From Polyangiaceae bacterium (GTDB lineage Bacteria > Myxococcota_A > Polyangia > Polyangiales > Polyangiaceae): a stretch of 32,047 nucleotides of DNA. The notes beneath the pieces were generated by a model, which saw nothing but the letters and a program-made list of their open reading frames with translations, had not been told where the DNA came from and made no database searches. The position numbers and the translations under genes were made by a program. This document shows, piece by piece, positions 10,258-29,115 of the stretch (position 1 is its first letter; the number at the start of each line of letters is the position of its first letter). The stretch is from contig JADLEQ010000009.1 in assembly GCA_020846005.1 (NCBI GenBank), forward strand, positions 1 through 32,047. Reading direction: 5' to 3'.

Positions 10258-11298
10258 TCACTTCGCCCCGAGCTCCGCGAGCTCCTTCTTGGCGGCGTCC
10301 GCCAGCCCGCGCTCCTTCTCGCCCGCCAGCTCGACCACCTTGCGGAACGCGGCGATGGCCTCGGTCTTCTTACCGACCAGGCGCAGGTGCTGCCCGCGGT
10401 AGAAGTGCGCCGCCGCGAAGTCCGGCTTCAGCGCGAGGGCGGCGTCGTAGTCGGCGAGCGCGCCCGGGTCGTCCTTCGCGCCGTGGCGGCAGGCGCCGCG
10501 ACGCACGTGCAGCTCGGGGCTCGGCCGCGCGCCGACTACCTTGTCGAGCACCGCGACGCAATCCGCGAATGCCTCGAGCTTCCCGAGCAGGTTGGCGACC
10601 TGCACCATGACGCCCGGGTCGTCGCTCGCGACCTTCCGGAGCTGCTCCACGGCCTCGTCCCGGCGACCCGCCTGCGCGAGCAGCTCCGCGTACGCGAAGT
10701 GGACCTCCGGAGTCGGCTCAAGCTGGACGGCGGCGGCGTACGCCTTGAGGGCTCCGTCCCGATCCCCCGCCGCCTCGAGCGCGAGCGCGAAGTTGACGAG
10801 CAGCCCGGGGTGCTGCGACTTACGCTTCAGCGCCGCGCGGATGACAGCGAGCGCGCCGTCCGTCTCGCCCGCCTCGAGGAGCAGCCCGGAGAGGTTGACG
10901 CTGGCGTCGGGGAGCGCCGGATCGAGCTCGATCGCCCTCTCGTACCACTTGCGCGCGTCGCCGGGCTGGCCGAGCCCCTCCAGCGCGAGCCCGAGGTAGT
11001 AGGCGGCCTGGGCGTCCTTCGGGTGGCGGGCGACGGCCTTCTCGAGCAGGCCGCGCGCGCGCTCGAAGTCCTTGGCCTCGAGCGCGGAGATGGCCTCGGC
11101 CACCTCGGGGCTCGACGCCGGCTCGACGCCGCCCGGCGCGGCGCCGGGCTCGTCCAGCGGCGGGGGATCGACGGGGGCCTGCGCGGGCGCGGGCCCCGCG
11201 CACGCTCCCACGAGCCCCGCGGCTCCCACGAGCCCCGCGGCTCCGATCCGCCGTGTCGCGCCCACGAACCCTGCCACACGCTTCGCCATCGTCGTCAT
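10258..11298 (-). CDS. TPR-repeat lipoprotein cotranscribed with glnD
   Basis: This 346-aa protein has an N-terminal hydrophobic segment ending GLVGAC, with Cys33 as the likely lipidated residue. An Ala/Pro-rich linker is followed by consecutive TPR units from about residue 60 to the end, with motifs such as AAYYLGLALEGLGQPGDA and ERAIELDPALPDA. It is probably an envelope-anchored scaffold, and its partner is unknown. The ATG at 11298 overlaps the glnD stop as ATGA. A second ATG at 11289 has GGAG 10 nt upstream and could be the true start, which would drop three residues. The open frame continues upstream through glnD antisense-like composition, but that part lacks any domain. Confidence 0.88.
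   Translation of the reverse strand: MTTMAKRVAGFVGATRRIGAAGLVGAAGLVGACAGPAPAQAPVDPPPLDEPGAAPGGVEPASSPEVAEAISALEAKDFERARGLLEKAVARHPKDAQAAYYLGLALEGLGQPGDARKWYERAIELDPALPDASVNLSGLLLEAGETDGALAVIRAALKRKSQHPGLLVNFALALEAAGDRDGALKAYAAAVQLEPTPEVHFAYAELLAQAGRRDEAVEQLRKVASDDPGVMVQVANLLGKLEAFADCVAVLDKVVGARPSPELHVRRGACRHGAKDDPGALADYDAALALKPDFAAAHFYRGQHLRLVGKKTEAIAAFRKVVELAGEKERGLADAAKKELAELGAK
11204..11239. repeat. 18-bp tandem duplication in the lipoprotein signal region
   Basis: Two exact copies of GCTCCCACGAGCCCCGCG encode a doubled Gly-Leu-Val-Gly-Ala-Ala-type segment inside the hydrophobic core of the signal peptide. The unit is in frame, so it lengthens the signal by six residues. Confidence 0.85.
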
Positions 11299-13976
11299 GC
11301 TCCGCGGGGAACGTCTAGCCCGGAAACGACGCTCAGGATACGGGCTTTCACCTCCTCGATGCGCGCTGGCTCGAGCTTCGAGCCGTCGGCCTCCGAGACG
11401 TAGAAGACGTCGGCGACGCAGTGGCCCTCGGTGTTGATCTTGGCGAGCGCGATGTCGAGCCGCTCCTCCTGGAGCGTGTGCGCCAGCCAGAACAGCACCC
11501 CGAGGCGATCCCGCGCCGTCACCTCGATCAGCGTGTGCCGAGCCGAGGCGCGGTTGTCGACGAGGACCTCCGGCGTGACGCCGGGCGCCGGGCGCTCCCC
11601 GAGGCCCCCCGCCCGCCGCCGCGCCTCGACCAGCTCCGTCGCGACTCGCCGCCCCTGGAGCAGGTCGACGAGATCCCGCTCCAGGCGCTCCGCCAAGCCC
11701 TCGCTCGTGCCCTCGCCCGCCGGGCGCACCCAGAAGAGATCGAGCACGCGCGCCTGTCCCCGAGGGTCCACCCACGAGTGCACCTGGGCGCTCAGCACGC
11801 TCAGGCGCGCGGCGGCGAGCGTCGCCGTGATGAGCGCAAGGAGCCCCGGACGGTCCCGCGCGACGAAGGCGATCTCGAGGTGCGTGCCGTCGCTGCCGAG
11901 CACGCCGACCGCGGGCTCGCGCTCCACCGCCTCTGCCGCGAAGCCAGCGTGCCGGACCACCGCCTCGGGCTCGTTGGCGTAGAGGTAGCGATCGGGCATC
12001 GCCTTGAGGAAGTGATCGATGAAGCGCGACCGCCGGCCCCAGACGGCACGCACCCGCGCGCGCCGCCCCTCGAGATCCGTGCGCTCCGCCTGCCCCGCTC
12101 CGTGCTCGAGCCAGCGATCGGCGGCCACGTAGAGCTCGTCGAGCATGCGCGCCTTCCACGTCGTCATCGCGCCCGGGCTCGTCGTCGAGACGTCGCACAC
12201 GGTGAGCAGGTAGAGCTCGCGCAGGCCCTCGCGGCCGTGCACGTCGGCGCACAGCTCGACCAGCGTCGCCGGGTCGTCCACGTCGCGCTTGGTCGCGACG
12301 TGGTACATGCGCAGGTGCTGGAGGACGAGGTGCTGCACCTCGGCGATGTCGGTGGGCGCTAGGCCGAGCCGGGCGAGGATCGCCCCGGCGAGGGCGTGCC
12401 CTCGCTGGGCGTGGCCCCGGCCGCCGACGTCCTTCCCCACGTCGTGCAGCAGACACGCGAAGAAGAGGACGGTCGGGCGCGAGAGCTCCGCCGCGAGCCG
12501 CGACGCGAGCGGAAACTCGACGGCGAGCTCGCCCCGGCACAGCGCGGCCAGCCTCGCGACACACGCGACCGAGTGCGCGTCGACCGTGAGCACATGGTAG
12601 AGATCGTGGTGGACACGGCCGATCACGGGGGCGAACTCGGGGACCATCGCGACGAGCACCCCCACGTCGTGCAGCTCGCCGACGACGCTGCCCCCGCGGA
12701 ACCGCGGGCGCTGCGCCGAGGCGCACAGCCGGACGAACAGCCGCGCCGCCTCGGGCGAGGCCCGGAGCCGCTCCGCGAACGCCGGCAGACTGGCCGCGCG
12801 CGCGATCGCGTCGCGCGCGAATTGATACACGGGGAGGCGCCGGCGAACGGCCTCGTCGTACAAGCGCAGCGCGATCGCGGGCTCCGCGTCGAGCGACGCC
12901 GGATGGATGATGGAGACGGCGCCGTTCGTGATCTTGAGCTCGCCCTCGATCCGGACCTCGCTCGGCCGGCGCCGCGGGGGCGGCGCCGCGCGCGCGAGCA
13001 CCGTCTCCATCCCGCGGCCGACGGCGCGCGCGCACCGGTAGTACTCGCTCATGAAGCTCTCGACGCCCGGCCCGCCCGGCCCGTGCCCGAGCGCGATCGC
13101 GATCTGCTCCTGCCGATCGAAGCTCAGTCGATCGGAGCGCCGGCCCGCGAAGACGTGGAGGAGGTTCCGCACCCGATGGAACAGGCGGATCCCCCGCTCG
13201 ATGCCCTGCCACTCTCGGGGGACGAGGACGCCGATGCGGATGAGGTCCCGCAGGCTCGCCACGCCCCAGCGCGCGCGCGCGGCCCAGTGGGCGACGTCGT
13301 AATCGCGGAGCCCACCGGGGCCGTGCTTCACGTCCGGCTCGAGCAGGTAGACGGAACCGCCGAACCGGGCGTGCCGTTCGTCTGCCTGCTCCGCCATCCG
13401 GTCGAGGAAGCCGCCGAGATCCGCCTCGCCGAACACGCCCTCGTGCAGGCGCGCGACCATCCGCGCGCCGAGCGCGGTACCTCCCGCGAGCGCGCGCCAG
13501 TCGAGGAGCGAGGTGGCCGTCGGGAGGTCGTGCCGCGCCAGCTCGAGCAGCTCGTCCGGCTCCACGACCTGGTGGCCCAGGGCGACGCCCGAGTCCCAGA
13601 GCGGGTAGAGCAGCGACTCGACGACCTCCCGCCGCCCCGCGTCGCCGTCCGGCACCAGGACCCGAACGTCGATGTCGCTCGCGAACGACGGCGCGCGCCT
13701 GCCGTAGCTCCCCACCGCCGCGAGCTCCACCCCCGCCGCCTGGGTGCCCTCACCCCCCACCGTGACCTGGAAGAGCGCGCCGAGCAGCTCGTCGAGCGCG
13801 GCGGCGTACCGCTCGCACGCCGGGAGCCCGGCCTCCTCACCGCCCGCCTCGATGGCTCGCGCGATCTCCCGCCGCTCGCCCTCCAGGCGCGCGCGCCAGG
13901 CGGAGGCGGCGCGCGTCGGGTCGCCGGCCGGGGTCGGGGCCGGGGCGCTCGGAGCCGGGGGGACCGCCTGGGTCAC
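11295..13976 (-). CDS. glnD: PII uridylyltransferase / uridylyl-removing enzyme
   Basis: GlnD uridylylates and deuridylylates the PII signal protein according to glutamine level, setting nitrogen status. The 893-aa protein has the nucleotidyltransferase signature GSYGRRAPSFASDID (89-103, with both Asp present). The GlnD-specific segment LEPDVKHGPGGLRD follows, then an HD domain with LLHDVGKD near residue 510. Two C-terminal ACT domains begin near residues 700 (VARDRPGLLALI) and 817 (VTARDRLGVLFWL). All domains are in family order. The start is inferred: GTG at 13976 is the most downstream usable codon before the domain, without a clear Shine-Dalgarno. The frame stays open to 14468 but that would run into the divergent gene. 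The stop overlaps the lipoprotein start. Confidence 0.95.
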   Translation of the reverse strand: MTQAVPPAPSAPAPTPAGDPTRAASAWRARLEGERREIARAIEAGGEEAGLPACERYAAALDELLGALFQVTVGGEGTQAAGVELAAVGSYGRRAPSFASDIDVRVLVPDGDAGRREVVESLLYPLWDSGVALGHQVVEPDELLELARHDLPTATSLLDWRALAGGTALGARMVARLHEGVFGEADLGGFLDRMAEQADERHARFGGSVYLLEPDVKHGPGGLRDYDVAHWAARARWGVASLRDLIRIGVLVPREWQGIERGIRLFHRVRNLLHVFAGRRSDRLSFDRQEQIAIALGHGPGGPGVESFMSEYYRCARAVGRGMETVLARAAPPPRRRPSEVRIEGELKITNGAVSIIHPASLDAEPAIALRLYDEAVRRRLPVYQFARDAIARAASLPAFAERLRASPEAARLFVRLCASAQRPRFRGGSVVGELHDVGVLVAMVPEFAPVIGRVHHDLYHVLTVDAHSVACVARLAALCRGELAVEFPLASRLAAELSRPTVLFFACLLHDVGKDVGGRGHAQRGHALAGAILARLGLAPTDIAEVQHLVLQHLRMYHVATKRDVDDPATLVELCADVHGREGLRELYLLTVCDVSTTSPGAMTTWKARMLDELYVAADRWLEHGAGQAERTDLEGRRARVRAVWGRRSRFIDHFLKAMPDRYLYANEPEAVVRHAGFAAEAVEREPAVGVLGSDGTHLEIAFVARDRPGLLALITATLAAARLSVLSAQVHSWVDPRGQARVLDLFWVRPAGEGTSEGLAERLERDLVDLLQGRRVATELVEARRRAGGLGERPAPGVTPEVLVDNRASARHTLIEVTARDRLGVLFWLAHTLQEERLDIALAKINTEGHCVADVFYVSEADGSKLEPARIEEVKARILSVVSGLDVPRGA

Positions 13977-14012
13977 CCCCGGGGTGTAGCGCCGGCGGGG
14001 CCGGGCCGGAAT

Positions 14013-14030
14013 CCGCGACCGCGGTCGCGG
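14013..14030. promoter_or_regulatory. 18-bp perfect palindrome in the glnD divergent promoter region
   Basis: CCGCGACCGCGGTCGCGG is a perfect 9+9 palindrome between the glnD start (13976) and the divergent gene at 14055. It sits where the -35 element of the rightward promoter would be, given the TACATT at 14042. It is an operator candidate. Chance is not excluded in such GC-rich DNA, although 18 perfect bases is long. Confidence 0.45.
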
Positions 14031-14041
14031 CGGGTCGATGC

Positions 14042-14047
14042 TACATT
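14042..14047 (+). promoter_or_regulatory. Putative -10 (TACATT) for a leaderless transcript
   Basis: TACATT fits TANNNT and lies exactly 7 nt before the ATG at 14055. Transcription would begin at or next to the start codon. No Shine-Dalgarno is present, which fits leaderless translation. Confidence 0.5.
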
Positions 14048-14054
14048 GCGCTCC

Positions 14055-14624
14055 ATGAGCAGGACGACCCGGAGACAGTGGCTGGTCGCCGCGGGCGCGG
14101 CGCTCGGCGCCCTCGCCGTCGGTCCGCGGGTCGCGCGCGCCGGCGTCGCCCGCGCCGTGACCCTCGAGGAGCTGGTGGCGCTGAGCCGCTTCGGCGTCGT
14201 CGCGACGCCGGTCGATGCGTTCAGCCGGTGGGAGACGATCGGCAAGCGCAAGCGCATCGTGACGTACACGCGGCTGCGGATCGAGGAGGCGCTCCTCGAG
14301 GCGGACGATCCGGGGGCCGAGCAGCTCGTCCGCACCCTCGGCGGGCAGGTCGGGGAGATCGGTCAGATCGTCCACGGCGAGGCGGTGTTCACCATCGGCG
14401 AGCGCACCGGCGTCTTCCTGCAGCCGCTGGGCGACGTGCTCACGGTGACGGCCCTCGCGCAGGGGCACTACCCGCTGCGCGCCGACTCCCGTGGCGCGCT
14501 CCGCCTGGCGCCGAGCCCGCGCCTGGGCTCATTGGTCGGCGAGGAGTCGTCCGCGGTCCGCCGCCTGGTCGGGCGCACGGCGAGCGAGGCGCGCGACCTC
14601 GTGCGGGGTGCGCGTGGCCGCTGA
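14055..14624 (+). CDS. Exported protein of unknown function with Tat-type signal
   Basis: This 189-aa protein begins MSRTTRRQWLVAAGAALG. The twin arginine followed by a hydrophobic stretch and ARAGVARA cleavage region resembles a Tat signal peptide. The mature part is a compact alpha/beta segment with motifs such as LSRFGVVATPVDAFSRWE and VHGEAVFTIGERTGVFLQP. I do not recognise the family. It contains no cysteine and no obvious catalytic motif. The gene overlaps the start of the metalloprotease gene, so the two are likely made together. A role as partner, inhibitor or co-exported factor of the protease is conjecture from this overlap. Confidence 0.78.
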   Translation: MSRTTRRQWLVAAGAALGALAVGPRVARAGVARAVTLEELVALSRFGVVATPVDAFSRWETIGKRKRIVTYTRLRIEEALLEADDPGAEQLVRTLGGQVGEIGQIVHGEAVFTIGERTGVFLQPLGDVLTVTALAQGHYPLRADSRGALRLAPSPRLGSLVGEESSAVRRLVGRTASEARDLVRGARGR

Positions 14625-15510
14625 GCTCCGGCGCCGCGCAGCGCCCTGGTTGGCGGCGGCGGTGACGCTCGCGTGGGCGAGCGGCGCGGCCGCCTACTGC
14701 CGGACGACGACGTGCAACCCCGGCGACCCCAAGCAGAAGTGCGAGCGCGACGCCGACGGCTGCCTCACGAGCGGCAAGCCCCTCTTCTGGTCGGATCGCT
14801 GCCTGACCTTCAGCGTGAACGAGGCCGGCTCGAAGCGGCAGGGGCTCGACTTCGCCACCGTCGCCTCGACGATCGAGGCCGGGTACGCGACGTGGATCAG
14901 CGCGACGTGCGACGGCGAGCGGCCCTCCCTCGAGATCCACACGACGCCCGCCGTCTCGTGCGACGAGATCGAGTACAATTCTCGGCACGGGAACGCGAAC
15001 CTGTGGGTCTTCCGCGACGACGCTTGGCCCTACGGCGCCGGCGCCACGCTCGCCCTCACCACCATCACCTTCAACCGCGACACGGGTGAGATCTACGACG
15101 CCGACGTGGAGGTCAACTCGGCGGACAACCCCATCGTCGTCGGCCGGCAGCCGGGCAAGGCGGATCTCCTCTCGATCGCCACGCACGAGACCGGCCACGT
15201 CCTCGGGCTCTCTCACTCACCGGACCGGGACGCCACGATGTACGCGAGCTACTCCTTCGGCACCATCGCCCTCCGGGACCTCGAGCCCGACGACACGGCG
15301 GGCATGTGCGCGATCTATCCGCCCGGTCGCGAGACCTCCGCGTGCAACCCGGCGCCGCGCCACGGCTTCTCGCCGGTGTGCGCCCCCGCGGAGAAGAAGG
15401 ACTCCGGCTGCTCGGTCGCGGCCCAGGGCACCGCGCAGTCGGGCACCCGCGCGGCGTGGCTCGTGGCGCTCGCGGCGGCCTTCGCCGCGGTCCGCCGCCG
15501 CCGCCCCTGA
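14608..15510 (+). CDS. Secreted matrixin-like zinc metalloprotease with MYXO-CTERM tail
   Basis: This 300-aa protein (from GTG 14608; GTG 14614 is also possible) has a signal peptide ending GAAA near residue 29. The catalytic motif is [11 protein letters not shown], with zinc ligands His193, His197 and His203 and catalytic Glu194. The Met-turn DATMYA (Met211) follows, as in metzincin family M10. The domain from about 50 to 235 is a minimal peptidase without hemopexin repeats. The C terminus has SGCS, one hydrophobic helix ([12 protein letters not shown]) and RRRR, a MYXO-CTERM-type sorting signal. It is therefore probably surface-tethered or shed. No pro-domain cysteine switch is obvious. The start region overlaps the upstream Tat-type gene by about 17 bp. 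Confidence 0.87.
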
Positions 15511-16036: not shown

Positions 16037-16237
16037 ATGCGCATCACCGTCAACGGAGAGCCGCGCGAGGTCGCCGACACCCTCGACGTGCAGGGGTTGC
16101 TCGTCCACCTGGAGCTCACGCAGGGGCTGGTCGCCGTGGAGGTCAACCGAGAGGTCGTGCCGCGGGCGCGGCACGCCGGCACGCGGCTGGCGGAGGGCGA
16201 CGCGGTCGAGATCGTCCACTTCGTCGGCGGGGGCTGA
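16037..16237 (+). CDS. thiS: Sulfur carrier protein ThiS
   Basis: This 66-aa ubiquitin-like protein carries a C-terminal thiocarboxylate that donates sulfur to thiamine thiazole synthesis. The beta-grasp pattern [12 protein letters not shown], the central [12 protein letters not shown] and the ending [10 protein letters not shown] are typical, with the essential terminal Gly-Gly present. A GTG immediately before the ATG (16034) is an equally possible start, adding one Met. No thiG, thiF, thiO or other thiamine gene is in the window, and no TPP riboswitch can fit in the 39-bp upstream gap. It must act with distant partners, or could serve another sulfur-transfer route. Confidence 0.9.
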
Positions 16238-18735: not shown

Positions 18736-21700
18736 CTAGCCGAGCAGCGACCGCGCACCGGCGTGGTCGGGGACGTCGCTCAGCGCCTTCATCGCGAGCA
18801 CGCGGGCCTTCTTGGCGTCGCCCTCGGCGTGCGCCGCGAGCGCGAGGCGGTAGTTCGCCTCCGCCTTGGCCTCCGGCGGCGCGCCCTCGGCGCCGTCGCG
18901 AGAGGTCTTCATCATGCTGATCGAGCGCCACGCCTTCAGCTCGGCCTCGTCTTCGCCGGCTCGCCGCGCGATGTCCGCCAGCTCGAGCGCGAGCGCGCCG
19001 TTCCGCAGATCCATGTCGAACGCGCGGGTCATGGCCGCGAGCGCGCTCGCGGCGTCGCCTCCCGCCAGGTGGAGTCGCGCCTGCTCGCGGAACACGGGCG
19101 CGAGCGCCTTCACGCGTCGCCCGCGCTGCGTCTCGGCGAGCTCGGCGAGGATCGCGCGCGCCTCTGCGACCCGCCCCGACCGGGCGTACCCCCGCGCGAG
19201 GAGGACCCCCAGCTCGACGTGCTCGGGCGCTCCGCTCCGAGCGCGCTCGAGCAGCGGCACGGCCTCCTCGGCGCCGTCGTCCAGCTCGAGGAGCACCTCC
19301 GCGCCCTCGACGAGCTGACCCAGTGACTCCGCGGGCGCCCCGCCCGTGACGGCGTCCGCGAGCAGCAGCCGCGCGAGCTCGCGCCGAGCCCCCGCCGGCT
19401 CATAGATGGCACGCATCCGCGCGACGAGCTCCGGGCGCCCCGGGGCGAGCGCGTGCGCGCGCTCCAGCGCCGGGATGGCCGCCGCCGGCTCCCCGAGCGC
19501 GACGGCCGCGCCGGCCGCCGCCAGCGCCTGCTCCACGACCTCGGGGCCGGTGGCGAGATCGACCAGGGCGCGGCGCGCGCCGAGCACCGCGGCCCAGTCC
19601 TGGACGCGCTCGCCGACCTCCGCCTGGAGCTCGTGTGCCTCGGCCCAGGCGGGCGCGACGGCGATCACTGCGTCGAGCCGATCGCGCGCGCGCTCGACGT
19701 CGCCGCGACGGACCAGGCGGCGCGCGTGCTCGAGCCCGAGGACCGCGAGATCCTCGCCGTGCGCCTGCTCCAGCGCGACGTCGAGCGCGGTGACGAGCTC
19801 CTCCTCGACCGCCTCGCCGCGGGCCTCGAGCTCGATCCAGGCGGCGACCGCCTCGCGCCCGCGCCCCACGTCGCCCAGCAACTCCGCGCGCCGCACCAGC
19901 CACGGCACGCGCGGCTCTCGCGCGATCGCGGACTCCACGACCGCCAGCGCTCGACCCGAGTCACCGCTGGCTCGCCGCGCGTCCACCGCGCGATCCACGA
20001 GCCCGGGATCGCCCGGCTCTGCCTCGAGCGCCTGCTCGAGCACGTCCGCGACGCGACCCCAGTCCCCGCGCTCGGCGTGCCGCCGGAGGACCTCATCGCG
20101 CAGGACGGCGCTGCTCGGGCAGGCGTTCAGCCCGAGCTCGAGCGCGCGCTCGAGCCCCGCGTCGTCCTCACGCGCGCGGCGGAGGTCGACCAGTCGGAGG
20201 GCCAGCGCCTCGGCCACGGCGGGCTCCGCCACCGCGATCGACGCCTCGAGCGCGTCCCCGAGGCGGACGTCGTCCCCGGTCGCCTCCGCGAGGCGGACCG
20301 CCGTCGCGAGGAGTGCCGGCTCGCGCCCCCAGTCGAGCGCGCCCGCCAGGACGTCGAGCGCGTCCTCGGCGCGATCGAGCGCCTCCAGGAGCGCCGCGAG
20401 CCGCCCCGCCAGCGCCACCACGCGCGCGGAGTCCTCCGCGTCCCGCGCCGCGTCGAGCTGCTGGCGGAGGAGCGCCGCGAGATCCTCCTGCCGGCCCGCC
20501 TCGGCGAGCAGCCGCTCGAGCAACACGGCCGCGCCCACCTGGCGCGGGTCCTCGCCGAGGATGTCCTCGAGCACCGCTGCCGCCGCGTCGCGGCCCTCGG
20601 GCTGCTCGAGCAGGAGCGTCGCCTGCTCCAGGCGCAGCCGGCTCCTGTCCGCTGCGGAGTCGACGAACGGCAGGACCCGGTCGATCAGCCGCGCGAGCTC
20701 GAGGTCGTCCCCGAGCTGGCGCAGCGTACGGAGCAGGCGCTCCCACACGTCGCGATCCGCAGGGTCGCGCGCGAGCAGCCGGTCCAGCGCGCGCGCCTCG
20801 AGGCGCGGCTCCCCGGCCACGACGGCGGCGCGCGCGACCGCCTCGAGCTCGTCGCGCGAGGCGGGCAGGTCGAGGCGCTCGGCGCGCAGGAGCCGCAGCT
20901 CGAGCGCGCGCGCGAAGTCCCCCGCTGCGTGCAGGCGACCCGCGAGCTCCTCGAGCGCCCACAGCGCGTCCGCATCCGGCAGCTCCGCTGCGTGACGGAC
21001 CAGGGCCTCGAGCGCGCGACGCGCGAGCGCCGGCGCGCTCTCCTCCGCGGCCAGCGCGACGCACTCCCGCACGAGCGCCGGCTCGGGGGAGCGCTCCGCG
21101 CGCAGCGCGAGGGCCTCGGCGAGCAGCGCGCCGCTCCCGCTGGCGCGCGCGAGCCGTTCGAAGAGCTCGATCGCCTCGGCGCGCTCCGCATCCACGCGGA
21201 GCACCTCGCGGAGGGCGCCCGCGGCCCGGCTCGCGTCGGGCTGCGCCTCGAACGCGCGCGCCAATAGGTCGAGGCCGTCCGAGCGTGTCTCCGCCTCCGC
21301 GAGCCGCACCTCCGCCAGACGGTAGAGGACGGGCGCCTCCGGCGCGCTCGCCCGACCGAGCCGCCACGCGGCGATGCGCTTCTCGAGGATCTCCGACTCC
21401 CGCGCCGACTCGCCGAGCGCGTCGAAGGCCCGCGCGATGGAACTCCAGGCGGAATCGTCGGCGCCCGGATCCGCGTCGAGCCCGGCCAGGATACGCTCGG
21501 CGCGCGCCGACAACGCGCTCCGGCGCTCGGGCGCGGCGCTCAGGCTCTCCCCGTGGAGCGCCACCAGATCCGCCAGCGCGCGGGCCTGGGCGGCGGCGCC
21601 GCTGGCGGCAGCCAGCCGGGCCTCGACGGCGCGCGCCAGCAGCTCGACGCGGCCGCGCGAGCGCAGTGCCGCCTCCAGGGCCGCCGCGTCCCGCTCGCTC

Positions 21701-24700
21701 TCGAGCGCTGCCTCGAAGGCGGACTCGACGAACTCCGTCGCGCGGAGCGAGTCGTCCCGATGCACGGCGATCTCGCTGAGATCGAGCAGCGCCTCGGCGC
21801 GGGTCGGCCCGCGCGGGTCGTCGCGCCGGAGCAGGAGCAGCAGCGCGCGGTACGTCCGCTCCGCGCGGTCGAGATCGCCGAGGTCGAACGCCACCCGCGC
21901 CAACGTCCCGAGCACGCCGGGGTGCGCGGGATCGATCTTCGTCGCGAGCTCCAGCTCGGCCACGGCCGCCTCGGCCGCTCCCTGCCCCAGCCGGACGAGC
22001 GCGAGCTCGCGGTGGACCAGCGCGCGCTCCTTCGGCCGGCGCGCGCCGTACCGATCGATCTGCGCCCGCAGCACCTCCGAGGCTCGCTCGAGGCCGCCGA
22101 CGGCCCGCAGCGCGGCAGCGAGGCGGAGCCGGAGCTCGACGTCGTCCGGCGCCAGCTCGATCGCCTGCTCGAGGAGCGGCACGGCGCCCGCGGCGTCCCC
22201 TCCCCGCGACCAGCGGAGCTCCGCGGCCTCCTCCAGCCAGCGCAGGCGCGTCGCGGCGTCCGGGGCCCGCGCCGCCTCCGCGACCAACAGATCCGCGAGC
22301 AGCGGCCACGCGCCGTCCTCACGATAGAGCTCGGCCAGGCGGCGCCGCACCGCCGCGCCGTCCAGCGCCGCGTGCGCGGCGTGCTCGAGGCGCTTGCGAG
22401 CGCTGGCGCGATCGCCCAGTCGGATGAGCGTGGCCGCGAGCCGAAGCGCGCGCTCGCCGAGCTCCTCCCGGGACGAGACCGTGCACAAGCGCTCGAGCGC
22501 TCTCGCCGCGTCGCGGTCGCGCCCCGCCGTCGCGTGGATGCGCGCGAGCGCCTCGAGCGATCCCTCGTGGCCGAGATCCGCCGCGCGCCCGTGGTCCGCC
22601 AGCGCGCGCTCCGCGTCCGCGAGCCGCCCCTCCGCGGCGTTCGCGGCCCGCGACCACGCGGCCGCTGCCGCGGCGGCCTCGCCGGCGTCCGCCAGCTCCG
22701 CCGCCTGGCGCTCCCAGAGCTCGACGACCCGCCCGTGCTCCTCGCGATCCTCCAGCAGCGTGACGAGCCGCCCGACGAACGACTGCGCGACCGGATCGGC
22801 GGCGGTCTCGCCGAACAGCTCCAACAAGAGCGAGCTCGCGCGCTCCGGATCCCCCAGGCGGTCGACCGTGAGCAGCGCCGCGTCCCGTCGCAGCTCCCGG
22901 CGTCGCCGGGCGTCGAACGGCAGGCGGCTCGCGTCGAGCAGGAGCTCGACCAGTTCGTCGTGGCGCCCCCGATCGAGCAGCAGCGCGGAGAGCTCCTCCA
23001 CCGCCCATGCCGCCGCTCGCGCGGGCTCGGGCGAGCCGTCCTCGACCCAAGCCGCGCCCGAGCGGTCGAGCAGCGCGCGCGTCACCTGCACGGCGAGCTC
23101 CGGGTCCGCGTGGGTCGAGCCAGCGACGGCGATCGCGCCGTCCCAGTCCGCCGCCTCGAGGTAGGCGCGCACCGCGCGCCGCGCGTCCGCCGTGCGCTCG
23201 ACGTGCACGCGCGCCAGGCGCAGCAGCAGCTCCCGCCTCCGAGCGACGCCCGCCTCGGAGGCGGCCTCCGCCTCCAGGAGCCGCGCGAGCTCCTCGTCGC
23301 GACCCACCTGGCCGAGCAGCGCGGCGAGCTCCTCGAAGCTCTCGGCGTCCGCGCCGTCGAGCGCGCGGACGCGCTCCCACGCCTCGATCGCCTGCTCCGC
23401 GCTCCCGACCTCGACGGCGAGGAGCCGCGCAGCGCGCACGCGATCCGCGCGCGCTGCGCGCCCCTCGAGGTGGCGCGCGCGCTCGACCAGCGCCGCGACC
23501 AGCGCGCGCCAGTCGCGCGCGGCGTCCAGCGCGGAGCACAGCCCATCGAGCGCCCGGCGCTCGACGGGCGCGAGCGCGAGCGCGCGCCGCCAGTCCGCCG
23601 CCGCGCGCTCCGGCTGCGCCAGGGCGCCCAGCGCCAGCTCGGCGGCGACCGCGAGGCACTCGACCCGGTCCGCGGGCTCCGGCTCGAGCTCGGCGCGGCG
23701 CTCGAGGGCGGCGCAGCGCCGCTCGGCCGCACCCTCGGCGGCGAGCAGCGGATCGGCCTCGCGCGCCGCGCGCAGCGCCAGCTCGGGGGTCGCCGCGACG
23801 GCCAGCGCGCGCTCGAGCTGCGCCGCCCCGCGCGGCGCGTCGCCGAGCGCGCTGGTGAGCACGCCGGCGGCCTCGAGCAGCAGGCCCGCACACGCGTCGC
23901 CCTCCGCCTGCTCGGCGAGCGCCTCGAGCGCCTCGGCCCGCGCGCCCTCGCGGTTCGCCGTGGCCGCGAGGCGCCCGAGTCGGTCCCGGACGGCGAGGTC
24001 CCCCGGACCGAGGCGGACGAGCGCGAGCACCGCGTCGAACGCCTGTGCGGCGTCTCCGAGCTCGTGCTCACAGAGATCCGCGATGCGCGCCAGCGTCACC
24101 GCGCGCGCGGCGTCGTCCGCCGCGCCCTCGAGCTCGATCGCGAGCATGCGGACCACGTCGGCGTGGCGCCCTCGCTCGGTGTAGTGCGCCGCGAGCTGCT
24201 GCGCGACGAGATCGCGGACGCTCCGCTCACGCGGCGCGGCGGGGCGCGTAGCGGACGGCGGCGGCACGCTGCGCCGCGCCGTCGGCGCCGCGATCAGCCG
24301 CTCGAGCAGCGCGACCGCGTCTGCCGAGAGCGACCCGCCGGCGATCAGCGACTCAGCGATGCCGAAGGCCTCGAGCACCTCACCGTCGTCGAGCCAGAGC
24401 GTGGCGATCCTGACCTCGAGCGCGTGCCGCTCGGCGGGCGCGGCGCTCGTCGCCCGGCGAGTGAGGATCGCGACCAGCGGGCGCGTCCGCCCCTCGCGCT
24501 CATAGAGGCGCTCGAGCGCCTGCTCGACCCGGGCGTCCGCGGGCGCGAGCGCGGCGAGCGCCTCGTAGTAGCCGATCGCCCGTGACGCGTCGGACGCGAA
24601 GTCCTTGGCGGCCATGGCGGCCTCCCGCAGCAGCTCAGCGCGCTCCGCGGGCTCGAGGCGCGCGAGGGCGGCGTCATAGAGCGCGAACAGATCGTCCCAG

Positions 24701-27700
24701 CGGCCGCTCGATCCGTACGCGAGCTTCAGGCGGTCGAACGCCCACGCCGCCGAAGGGTTGAGCCCGAGCACGCGCCGCAGGAGCTCGAGGACACGCTCGC
24801 CGTCGTCGAACCACTCCTCGTGGAAGTCCACGACGCGGCGGCCGATCGCCTCGGCCTCGTCCGCCGACAGCCCGCCGCCGAGCGCGGCGTCGTAGGCGGC
24901 CGCCGCCGGCTCGGGCCGGCCCAAGCGGCGAGCGGTCGCCTCGAGCGCGTCCCACAGCTCCTCGGCGGCGGGGAGCTCGTGGACGCCTCGGAGGGCGACC
25001 TCGAGCGCGCGCTCGTCGTCCTCCGCGCTGCACTCGACCAACGCCGCGTACCAGCGCCCGCGCGCCGCAGCGAGCGTCGGCTCTGGGCCGAGCGCCAGCA
25101 GCCGCTCGAGCACGCGGGCGCGTGACGCCGGATCCGGCTGATCGCGAGCGGCCCGCTCGAGCAGCTCGGCGGCGCGATCCCGGGCCGACGGATGGGCGAG
25201 CGCCCGCAGCGCCAGCGCCAGCGCGTCGTCGTCCGCCGGCTGCGCCTCGAGCACGCTCGCCACCACGCCGAGCGCCGCCTGCGGCTGCCCGAGCGAGTCG
25301 AGGAGCAGCTCTGCGATCTGCGTGTCGACCCCGGCGCGGGCCGCCGCGTCGACGCCCTCGCGGAGCGCGCGCAGCAGCTCGACGGCGCCGACAGCGTCCC
25401 CGAGCCGCGCCTTCAGGCGAGCCGCCTCGCGCAGGGCCTCGACGTGCTCGGGCTCGCGCGAGAGGATCCGCTCGTACAGGGCGAGCGCCCGCGACGGCTC
25501 CCCGAGCTCGCTCTCCTCGGCCCGCGCCCACTCGAGGAGCGCCGACGCCGTGGCTTCGCCCCGGCTCGCGCGGCGCTCGTGGACCCACCGGCGCTCGCCG
25601 GTCGCGCCGTCGAGCCCGGGCGCGCCGCGGAGGAACGCCTCGTAGGCGTCGAGCGCTGCCGGCTCACCGTCGCCGGCGCTCTCCACCAGCCGGCGGTGCA
25701 GCCCGACCGCCGCCGCCGCGCGCGCGGGATCCCGCGCCAGCACGCCGGCCAGCGCCGCCTCGAGCTCGCGCCGGGCGGTGGGCTCCGCGGAGGCGAGCGC
25801 CTGCGTCGCCAGGTGCTCGAAGCGAGCTACGTCGTCGGGCGCGGCCACGCGAAGCGCAGCGGTGACGAGCGCCCGCCTCGCCTCGACGACGCGAGTCCCC
25901 GTGAGCAGCGCGACCGGCGCCTCGAGCTCCGCGAGCGCGAGCCGCGACGCGGCGACCGTGACCAGGTGCGCAGCGATCGCGTCCTCGGTCGGCGCCAGCT
26001 CGAAGGCGCGGCGCCACGCGGCGAGCGCGCGCTCGGAGTCCTCGAGATCCGTCTCCGCGAGCACGGCGGCGGCCCGCAGCGCGGCCACCGCGTGATGGAC
26101 GGAGGCCGGCTCGAGCCGCCACGCCTCCGCGAGCGCCTCCAGCGCGGCGGCGCGCGCGGCGGAGTCCGCTGCGCGCTCCACGCGCTGGGCGAGCACCTGC
26201 CGCAGGAGCTCGACCTCGCCGAGCGAGCGCGCGACGGACTCGACGCTGGCGAGGAAGTCGTCGTGGCCGACGCCGGCGGCGAGCAGCTCGCGTTGCAGCA
26301 CGAGCGCGGCCTCGCGGCGCCCGCTCTCGACCTCGACGGCCGCGAGGCGCTCGAGCACGTGCAGCCGCCGCTCGCCGTCGGCCACCCCGAGGGCGCGCTC
26401 GAGCTCCTGGGACAGCGCCGCGCGATCGCCCTGCTCCGTCAGCAGCTCGACGAGCGCCGAGTGGGCGGCCAGATCTCGAGGATCCTCCTCGAGGATCAGC
26501 TGATATGCGGCGCGGGCCGCGCGGGCGTTGCCCAGGTCGCGACGCTGCAGCGCGGCGACCGCGTGCAGGAGCTGGCGGCGGCGCATCGGCTCCGTCGGCT
26601 GGGCGAGCGCGCTCTCGTAGAGCGCGAGGCGCTCGCGGGGGCTACCGCGCTCGGCGAGCAGCTCGTCGATCCGGCCGAGCAGGACGGCGTCGTCCGGCGC
26701 TTGCGCGAGCAGGCGCCGCAGGATGGCGACCGCACGCGGGACCTCGCCGACCTGCGCCAGCGCCTCGCCCGCTGCGCGCGCCAAGCGCGCGATCTCGGGG
26801 CGATCCACGGGCGCGTCGCCGAGCGCGAGTGACAGCGCGCGCGCGCGCACCGAGGGATCGAGGCCGTCGGCGAGCGCGTCGACCCGCGCGAGGCAGGCGT
26901 CGACGCGCTCGGGGGCGTCCGCCACGGCGAGGCCGAGCGCGCGCCCGGCCAGCGCCGTCGCGCGCTCCCGATCGCCGAGGGCCTCGCCCGCGAGGCGCGC
27001 CGCCTCGTCGAGCGCAGCGAGGCGCCGCGCCGCCTCCCCGGCGAGCAGCCCCTCGACCTCCAGCGCCTGCACCAGCTTCGCCGTAGCGCCCTCGCGCCGC
27101 AGCACGGGGCCGAGCGCGACGGCGGCCGCGAGCCGCGCCTCGCCGCTCGCCATCGCCTTCTCGAGCGCGGACCGCACCGAACGCTCCTCCGGGGCGAGGG
27201 CGAGCGCGGCGCCGAGCGCGGCGACCGCGCCGGGCGCGTCCGAGAGCCGGAGCTGTCGGAGCTGCGCGAGCCGCAGCAGGTACCCGACGCGCTCCACGCC
27301 CTCCACCGCGGACGCCTGCCGCTCGACGAGCTCGGCCAGCTCGCCCCAGCGCTTCTCGGCCTCGAGCAGCGGGGCGAGTCGCGCGTCGAGCTCCGGGCTG
27401 GCGCCGAAGCGCCGGGCCACGCCTCGCCACGCCTCGATCGCTCGATCGCGAGCCCCCACCTCCGCCCACAGCTCCGCCGCGCGCTCGGCGAGCGGCCGCG
27501 CCTCCGCCGCGTCGCGCGAGCGCTCCGCGCGCAGGCCGAGCGTCTCCGCGAGCCCGGCGCGATCGGCCGCGGCCTCGTGCAGCGCCTCGAGCCGCCGGAG
27601 CGCCTCGTCCGCCCACGGCGAGTCGACCAGCGCACGCCACGCGCTCACCCCCTTGGCCGCGTCGCCCTCGCTCTCCGACAGCCGCGCGAGCCGGCGCGCC

Positions 27701-29115
27701 GCGGCGTGGCGGCGCTCGGCCTCGGGCTCCAGGCGCAGCACGTGCTCGAGCGCCACCATCAGCGGCCGCATCTGCCCGGCCTCGGCGTGGAGCTCCGCCA
27801 GGCCGCGCGCCGCCTCGAGCTGTGCCGCCGGCTCGTCGCCGGCCTCGAGCGCCTGCTGGAAGGACTGCTGCGCTCGCCGCGCGTCCCCGGCCTGCTCGTA
27901 GGCACGCCCCGCGTCGACCGCCACGCGCGCGCGGAGCGCCGGATCGCGGGTCGACGCGAGCGCCCTCGAGAGCAGCTGCGCGGCGTCCGCCGTCTTCCCC
28001 AGGGAAGCGGCGAGCTGCACGAAGCGCCGGCGCAGCTCGTCGTCCGCGGGCGCGCCCGCCACCGCGGGCCCGAGCAGCTCGTACGCCCCCTCGGGATCGT
28101 CGAGCGCGTCTTGGCGCAGCACCGCGAGCCGGCGCTGCACCTCCACTCGGCGCGGACCGCGCGCGAGCTTGAGCTCGAGCCCGAGCATGGCGGCGGCGTT
28201 CCCTACGCGGCCCGTCCGCTCGTAGGCCTCCGACATCGCCGCCGCTGCGCGCGGCGCGACCGCGGCGTGCTCGAGGAGCTTCTCCGCGGCCTCGATCGCG
28301 CCGGCGTGGGACGGCTCCAGGGCGAGCAGCGCCTCGACCGGCTCGATCGCGCGCGCGGCGTCCGCGGCCGGCCCCATCCTGAGGGCGAGGACGCGCTCCG
28401 CGAGCGCGCGCGCCTCCTCGGGCTCCGGGGGAGCTCCGGCCCGCAGCGCCGCCTCGAGCAACGCGGCGAGCTCGCCGTGCCTGCCCGCCGCTGCGAGCCG
28501 AACCTCCAGCGCCGCTCGCGTGTCCGACGACGGCGCGAGGGCGTGGAGCCGCGTCATCGCCTCGACGGCGAGCTCGGCCGCCGCGCCGTCGCCCGAGAGC
28601 TCGACGGCGCGCCGGAGCCGCTCGAGCCGCTCGTCGCCGGAGGCCGCCTCCGCAGCCGCGAGCTCGAGTCGGACGAGCCCGTCCCGGTCGCCGCGATCGG
28701 CGAGCAGCGTGCGGAGCAGCGCGAGCGCGCGGGGGTGGCCGGGCGCCGCCGCGAGCGCGCGCTGTGCGTGCGCCCGCGCGCCGTCGTCGTCCCCGAGCGT
28801 CTCGGCGAAGAACCTCGCCGCGTGCAGGAAGAGCTCGGCCTGGAGCGGCGGGGCGATCAGCTTCACTCGGCGCTCGCTCACCGCGTGTTCGAACGCGAAG
28901 GCGACGTCGCCCACTTTGTCGTGCTGGACGCTCGCAGCGAGCAACCCAGACCAGAGCTCCGGGTGCGGCTGGCCCTTCGCGAGCGCGCCCACGAGCGCAT
29001 CGAGCACCGCCTGCGCGTCCCACTCCGCCCCCTCCAGCGCCGCGCCGAGCTCCTCGACGCGCAGCGCGCGCGCTCCTGAGGGCCGCTTCGTCTTCGGAGG
29101 TGGGATCGTGGCCAT
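18736..29115 (-). CDS. Giant helical-repeat (TPR-like) protein, 3459 aa
   Basis: One uninterrupted frame of 10.4 kb encodes a protein built almost wholly of degenerate TPR-like helix pairs. Examples are [36 protein letters not shown] and the last unit [18 protein letters not shown]. Composition is dominated by Ala, Leu, Arg and Glu. There is no signal peptide, membrane helix, catalytic motif or cysteine-rich segment. A short Pro/Ser-rich linker ([19 protein letters not shown]) near residue 1620 divides it into two solenoid halves. The N terminus ([15 protein letters not shown]) is Pro/Lys-rich, suggesting a flexible cytosolic start. The ATG lacks a good Shine-Dalgarno; TACGCT at about 29141-29146 may be a -10. 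At about 34 residues per TPR it could hold up to about 100 repeats. It probably scaffolds a large assembly, but its partner is unknown. Codon and base composition match its neighbours. Confidence 0.9.

Follow-up and report, generated by a model that had tools for sequence, protein, structure and literature searches.

An overlapping myxobacterial gene pair encodes a matrixin-type metalloprotease and a putative TIMP-like inhibitor

The overlapping genes and the encoded protease

The window (the whole stretch of 32,047 nucleotides of Polyangiaceae DNA analysed here) contains two overlapping genes for exported proteins on its plus strand. The upstream gene (14055..14624 including the stop codon, plus strand) starts with ATG and encodes a protein of 189 residues, hereafter the partner, which we assign to an exported TIMP/NTR-fold family based on its ORF, the spread of the family and the predicted fold. 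The N-terminus of the partner, MSRTTRRQWLVAAGAALGALAVGPRVARA, combines a twin-arginine-like N-region (TRRQWL) with an A-x-A signal-peptidase site at -3/-1, and a signal peptide of 29 residues (14055..14141, plus strand) is predicted by eye from the sequence and from the -3/-1 rule applied to alignment columns. The downstream gene (14608..15510, plus strand) encodes a matrixin-family metalloprotease of 300 residues. Two GTG codons are candidate starts, one at 14608 (17-nt overlap) and an alternative at 14614 (11-nt overlap), and both lie within the partner gene, so that the overlap reported in an earlier interpretation made from the letters alone (the sequence-only reading) stands.

Three further ORFs in the window can be described. 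A long minus-strand ORF (11295-14054), which may encode a PII uridylyltransferase, runs divergently from the partner gene; a small plus-strand ORF (16037-16237) that ends in GG may encode a ThiS-type sulfur carrier; and a single minus-strand ORF of 3459 aa (18736-29115) appears by eye to be rich in TPR-like repeats.

The protease exceeds the cut-off of the Pfam Matrixin model PF00413 (51.1 bits, cut-off 24) and is the sole PF00413 match of its own genome at E <= 0.001. It possesses both the HExxHxxGxxH zinc site (15184..15216, plus strand) and a Met-turn (TMYASY, with the Met at 15238..15240, plus strand), each aligned with its counterpart in MMP-8, and human MMP-8 and MMP-1 were among its phmmer matches, at E ~1e-6, with alignments that span both of these elements. 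A putative Sec-type signal peptide (14608..14694, plus strand), for which we propose cleavage before YCRTTTC, is followed by a short Cys-containing segment (14695..14781, plus strand) that occupies the place of a pro-domain and has no cysteine-switch motif. The C-terminus carries a MYXO-CTERM sorting tail composed of a Cys, a transmembrane stretch and RRRR (15406..15504, plus strand), which the sequence-only reading had already recognized and which the TIGR03901 model confirms (21.2 bits, cut-off 20). The protease is related to the myxosortase-dependent metalloproteases described by NF041905 (MXAN_2677/2678), yet it is not a member of this equivalog because it scores 117.5 bits against a cut-off of 250 bits.

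Linkage of the two families across genomes

The partner family is present in 52 of the 59 genomes of a set of relatives (own genome included), and a profile search, in which the best candidates alone were scored for each genome, found it in 162 of the 235 genomes drawn for this phylum, which we take to be Myxococcota in view of the named relatives and the MYXO-CTERM tail. Linkage to a matrixin was evaluated in two sets of loci. The order-level set comprises all 63 matches from these 59 genomes (the window being L002), with L048 and L051 left out of the denominator where the sequence runs out at a contig edge. In this set, 54 loci encode HExxHxxGxx(H/D) directly downstream of the partner, L037 brings the number to 55 with the variant HEIGHFFAMAH, and the beginning of a protease is present at the contig edge in L025 and L062, for a total of 57/61. 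The phylum-level set consists of the best match per genome for the first 60 entries in the list that lie outside the order, leaving out L106 and L141, which lie at or within 95 nt of a contig edge; here 50 loci carry a protease motif on the partner's strand, 300-1100 nt downstream, and four others (L103, L114, L125, L127) show the order protease-then-partner, for a total of 54/58. Thus a matrixin adjoins the partner on the same strand in 111 of 119 evaluable loci, four of them with reversed order, and the pair survives the test that had been set beforehand, namely linkage of the two genes in other genomes. No matrixin lies alongside the partner in L027, L035, L036 and L060 at order level or in L104, L108, L115 and L134 at phylum level; in L027 and L035 the sole PF00413 match of the genome sits elsewhere.

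Given 268 matrixin matches in the 59 genomes, a same-strand matrixin would be expected by chance within 1 kb downstream of a gene in ~0.03% of cases. Accident alone is refuted by these counts, and the broader explanation that the two genes are accidental neighbours or share a regulatory role only, which the eight unpaired loci would fit, is extremely improbable in view of the 111 paired ones. A matrixin was also found at 13 of 13 loci in a scan of named genomes (at least six of the 13 being contigs already counted in the first set), as a separate gene at 12 loci and in one frame with the partner at L094; the named carriers include Polyangium fumosum DSM 14668 (L096) and Polyangium sp. 6x1. The L094 locus (L094:1734-3272, from the Polyangiaceae MAG SKYG56) encodes partner and matrixin in one uninterrupted frame of 513 aa; it is not strong evidence for their association, since a minor alteration at the junction, real or introduced by assembly, may have joined them (compare L093).

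At order level, the genes of 50 out of 55 pairs overlap, most often by 4, 14 or 11 nt, these lengths being approximate because a script assigned the relatives' gene starts to the nearest plausible start codon, and the protease frame is open across the partner stop codon in 45 of 50 phylum-level pairs. The distance matrices of partner and protease are correlated (r 0.78 for 53 pairs, compared to a maximum of 0.24 in 1000 permutations), which owes something to shared descent, while the same-nearest-neighbour test of co-inheritance was weak (21/53). We consider it very likely that the gene pair is a functional unit.

The sequence-only reading had remarked that a pro-domain with a cysteine switch was not evident in the protease, and this holds for its relatives: the PRCGxPD/RCGxPD motif occurs in 0/55 order-level partnered proteases (window included) and in 0/50 at phylum level. 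The same motif search revealed a cysteine switch in 2 of 31 unpartnered matrixin loci from the same genomes (L194 and L201) and none in 29 (one of the 31 being without a motif ORF). Since unpartnered matrixins mostly lack the switch as well, the partner is not obligatory for a matrixin, and the idea that partners replace pro-domains is suggestive only, as the switch is absent where a partner is present but also from most unpartnered loci. A census of matrixins placed a partner beside 19 of 50 loci (19/47 after the removal of three duplicated places), a rate that is biased in that 20 of the loci were picked among places not known as paired.

Several individual proteases differ from the remainder. 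L194 and L201, which belong to the same order and have no partner in the stretch examined, stand out with PF00413 scores of 175 and 147 bits, compared to 69.6 for the next match in the list. In the partnered protease of L037, Ala takes the place of the Gly of the matrixin motif. L043, L047, L054, L056 and L059 represent a second subfamily of partnered matrixins that is devoid of the N-terminal Cys-rich segment and whose partners are also divergent.

The gene arrangement bears on whether the partner might serve the matrixin as a chaperone, that is, as a trans-acting pro-domain that folds, stabilises or transports it, any inhibition being secondary. Overlap with the partner usually first would suit such a role, but the order is reversed in four loci, partnerless matrixins occur in the same genomes, and NTR/TIMP, the fold predicted for the partner (see below), is to our knowledge not a chaperone fold. 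With the RhpC/RhpP system, in which an operon-encoded chaperone also inhibits its metalloprotease, as a precedent (PMC6490944), we regard a chaperone as an unlikely explanation.

Fold and mature N-terminus of the partner

AlphaFold2 modelling of the mature partner with 13 relatives yielded a model with pLDDT 94.9 and pTM 0.89. Foldseek returned nothing at E < 0.001 for this model in the PDB, and its first eight matches, comprising agrin NtA, TIMP-1, TIMP-2, an NTR domain and one archaeal OB domain, have E 0.02-0.06, probabilities of 0.98-1.00 and TM-scores of 0.3-0.5. When Foldseek's rows were aligned with VIA-align, agrin NtA (Z 10.3, 109 aligned, 2.6 A), N-TIMP-3 (Z 9.9, 117 aligned, rmsd 3.0 A) and TIMP-1 (Z 9.3, 115 aligned, 3.2 A) were among the matches, and all 50 rows listed are chains of TIMP, NtA, NTR or complement C3/C4/C5, the last of which have a C-terminal domain of NTR type. 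The alignments with N-TIMP-3 and TIMP-2 begin at model residue 1 and at the first residue of the chain, and the model matches the TIMP N-domain approximately in length, with no TIMP C-terminal domain apparent. From the model, the partner very likely has the NTR/TIMP fold. Folding of the fused L094 frame (20 rows, 7 over the protease) gave pLDDT ~27-64 for the protease block and pTM 0.44 for the whole, with the partner half refolded, and is uninformative as to an interface between the two.

Sequence searches relate the partner to known families to varying extents. Neither Pfam nor NCBIfam yields a match for the window partner, no model of either database is common to the 34 partner-family members scanned, PDB profile searches with the window partner gave nothing convincing, and tblastn of one relative against plasmids gave no match. 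The TIMP model PF00965 matches neither the window partner nor anything else in its genome; because the partner lacks this HMM match as well as Cys1 and the disulfides of TIMPs, we place it outside PF00965. The NTR model PF01759 found nothing better than E 0.06 in the 235 genomes. The Pfam NtA model matches 2 of 34 diverse partner-family members (best E 2.2e-4), and PF03146 NtA had no match at its cut-off in the 235 genomes, the best reaching 22.1 bits compared to 25.1. In a loose NtA search (E <= 1), which also produced matches in the E. coli control and in 34/235 genomes, many of them likely by chance, 10 of the best 15 places in the 235 genomes are partner-family genes, each with an adjoining matrixin (L219, L220, L221, L224, L226, L227, L229, L230, G172:C449 (L233) and G097:C261 (L109)), and the other five (L218, L222, L223, L225, L231) lie outside the family. 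The next two places, L232 and L228, have no or only a weak partner match; L228 encodes two weakly partner-like ORFs on opposite strands, one of them with Cys-x-Cys after a signal-like stretch, and no matrixin in the stretch examined.

PF00965 was exceeded at its cut-off in 5 of the 235 genomes, on proteins other than the partner. These proteins (L211-L215) have Cys-x-Cys directly after a signal peptide-like stretch, L216 and L217 score more weakly, and some of the seven have Cys-rich or MYXO-CTERM-like tails; we refer to them as bacterial TIMP-domain proteins. The stretches around L211-L217 contain no matrixin motif. The partner HMM matches two of the seven, L212 (24.1 bits), which is over the TIMP cut-off, and L217 (21.5 bits), which is below it. 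Both matches run gap-free from the cleavage site to ~residue 30 and align Cys-Ser-Cys with partner residues 1-3, and we take them as a bridge in sequence between the TIMP and partner families, short of proof.

The mature N-terminus of the partner family is in a fixed register. Among the 121 sequences that have an N-terminus, the (-3,-1) signal-peptidase rule holds at one and the same column in 120, and A-x-A is found there in 96, compared to 69 (rule) and 17 (A-x-A) for the next best column. There is no indel from this cleavage column to window residue 48, the one exception being a column inserted in L060 and L125. The mature protein begins with S, T, A or G in 115/121 sequences, and T, V, I or L occupies its second position in 113/121. 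As in TIMPs, the domain starts exactly at the predicted signal-peptidase site, and the predicted cleavage would place mature residue 1 where Cys1 lies in TIMPs, so that mature residues 1-4 (14142..14153, plus strand), which correspond in the fixed register and in the structural alignments to TIMP residues 1-4, may act as a zinc-site plug. The mature N-terminal Cys-x-Cys and the disulfides of TIMPs are absent from the partner family, and 91 of the 123 mature proteins contain not a single Cys. By conservation, the N-terminal six residues rank seventh of 13 regions (JSD 0.355). The top region is a loop, GGQVGEIGQIVHGEAVFTIGER, at mature 67-88 (14340..14405, plus strand), with a mean JSD of 0.433, followed by strand D with 0.412; Gly67 and Gly68 of this loop rank among the three best-conserved columns. 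Judging from strand order and numbering, the loop is probably equivalent to the C-connector of TIMPs.

These features have to be weighed against the possibility that the partner is a targeting or adaptor subunit, binding a ligand and steering the protease without blocking it, as do agrin NtA or the NTR domain of PCOLCE. Agrin NtA (PF03146), the best structural match by Z-score and the source of the weak sequence matches below the Pfam cut-off, is described as a laminin-binding domain without Cys1 that does not inhibit MMPs (PMC3439447). The fixed mature N-terminus and the conserved C-connector position are nevertheless the elements of the reactive ridge of TIMPs, and an adaptor role seems improbable.

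An RRx-hydrophobic pattern is carried by 16 of the 63 order-level partners and by 7 of the 60 at phylum level, and Tat export, which the sequence-only reading had tentatively attributed to the partner, plausibly fits the nearest relatives of the window, whose own partner has the twin-arginine-like N-region, but not the whole family, and so is not supported as a feature of the module.

A candidate inhibitor and its known counterparts

We propose that the partner is a cognate, cysteine-poor TIMP-like inhibitor of the pro-domain-less matrixin, predicted to bind the enzyme, inhibit it and cap its zinc, and we put the probability of this reading at about 60%. An inhibitor had been one of the guesses offered for the partner, and it gains support because the partner has a predicted TIMP/NTR fold and a fixed mature N-terminus and the protease has no cysteine switch. 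Gene linkage and overlap, the correlated distance matrices, the bridge in sequence and the conservation of the C-connector-like loop also speak for it. In MMP/TIMP complexes the conserved core is formed by TIMP residues 1-4 and the C-connector (residues 66-70 in TIMP-1 and 68-72 in TIMP-2); residue 1 binds the zinc through its amine and carbonyl, and residue 2 inserts its side chain into S1' (PMC3779175). By the proposed mechanism, the upstream gene would supply an exported NTR-fold protein that resembles TIMPs but lacks their cysteines, and the downstream gene an MMP-like matrixin without a cysteine-switch pro-domain, bound for the cell surface via its MYXO-CTERM tail, and the gene overlap may couple the synthesis of the two proteins through translation. 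Cleavage by signal peptidase would then create a new N-terminus on one ridge with the C-connector-like GG..GQ.V.GEA loop, this ridge would enter the matrixin cleft, where the free amino end (or the backbone) may cap the zinc, and the matrixin would remain silent, perhaps in the periplasm, until secretion and sorting free it. According to a published proposal, proteins with a MYXO-CTERM tail are held in the inner membrane by an anchor and fold before the T2SS exports them (PMC11980579), so that a matrixin left unguarded would pose a danger in the periplasm. The inhibitor reading has to accommodate the lack of TIMP cysteines from the partner family and the 8/119 partner loci without a matrixin, and it is also weakened by the fact that a shared fold does not by itself show function. 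Further points against it are agrin NtA, which likewise has no Cys1 and does not inhibit MMPs (PMC3439447), the cleavage of the TIMP-like partner by the metzincin of Listeria (PMC8235301), the modest Foldseek scores, the middling conservation of the N-terminal six residues, the missing or sub-threshold PF00965, PF01759 and NtA matches, and the frequency of matrixins that have no partner.

The sequence-only reading had suggested an undescribed module, which is not borne out, as a metzincin/TIMP-like pair has been published for Listeria (PMC8235301). In that system, adjacent genes encode a secreted metzincin (Mtz) and a second exported protein, Tim, whose TIMP-like fold was assigned by Phyre2 at about 60% and at over 90% after cleavage, and such pairs recur in Gram-positive bacteria (PMC8235301). 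The metzincin cleaves its TIMP-like partner, sections 4.3 and 5 of that paper report no inhibition, and the authors propose that the released Tim fragment acts, alone or with the metzincin (PMC8235301). The Listeria pair is thus a direct precedent for a partner that is a substrate or effector, in which the protease would cut the TIMP-like protein and the product would be the active agent. However, the Listeria metzincin removes ~50 N-terminal residues, upon which the TIMP-domain prediction improves (PMC8235301), whereas the partner domain here begins at mature residue 1, in a fixed column and with no extra segment to remove, and the window partner offers no Cys for a lipobox. A substrate role by analogy with Listeria is accordingly a minor possibility, slightly less probable than a chaperone. 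Adjacent metzincin and TIMP-fold genes are what the two systems share; Listeria Tim is a lipoprotein whose gene comes after the Mtz gene and is located in prophages or close to phage genes (PMC8235301), whereas the pair described here belongs to a Gram-negative phylum and combines a MYXO-CTERM protease with a partner that has no lipobox, an SPase I-type site, a domain starting at mature residue 1 and a gene that is mostly first and overlapping.

Returning to the proposed inhibitor, potempin A has an OB-fold, with which the predicted OB-type fold of the partner would agree; no potempin chain is among the 50 VIA-align rows listed, which excludes nothing. In the potempin/KLIKK pairs of Tannerella forsythia the inhibitor gene directly precedes the protease gene, including that of the MMP-like karilysin (PMC7296668), in agreement with the gene order here, but potempins are lipoproteins, unlike the window partner. 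AprI/Inh resembles the proposed partner as a periplasmic inhibitor of a secreted metzincin, but it is not TIMP-like in structure (PMC8235301), and Pfam as a whole yields nothing for the window partner. With animal TIMP/MMP pairs (PF00965 / M10A) the myxobacterial pair shares a matrixin-type enzyme, a predicted NTR/OB-fold partner and the positions of residue 1 and the C-connector, and it differs from them in having no N-terminal Cys-x-Cys, few or no cysteines, no cysteine switch and both genes in one operon. By analogy, the pair may work like a TIMP/MMP or potempin/KLIKK pair, and it resembles Listeria Mtz-Tim in kind while differing in partner and setting. Because the Listeria pair is published and potempin/KLIKK is analogous, the kind of system is not wholly new. 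We found no description of this pair in myxobacteria in the open-licence papers searched; it is a chromosomal matrixin/TIMP-fold operon with a cysteine-poor partner that is widespread in a Gram-negative phylum.

A bolder version of our proposal, that the pair is an ancient bacterial counterpart of MMP/TIMP in which the partner is a true homologue of TIMP/NtA NTR domains and caps the zinc with its own N-terminus and no Cys1, is tentative, and we think it somewhat less probable than its contrary. The TIMP family is described as being expressed throughout the Metazoa (PMC9409782); if this version is true, inhibitor/protease pairing and the N-terminus plug exist outside animals, and the Cys1 disulfide is not needed for them. 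The finding raises the questions of whether an NTR domain without Cys1 can inhibit a matrixin, what keeps MYXO-CTERM matrixins silent before they arrive at the surface, and whether the animal and bacterial pairs are related or convergent. A compact bacterial operon that contains both partners and occurs in much of the phylum, including named Polyangium strains (L088, L096), provides a testable system, and a family without a common Pfam or NCBIfam model thereby gains a hypothesis for its function.
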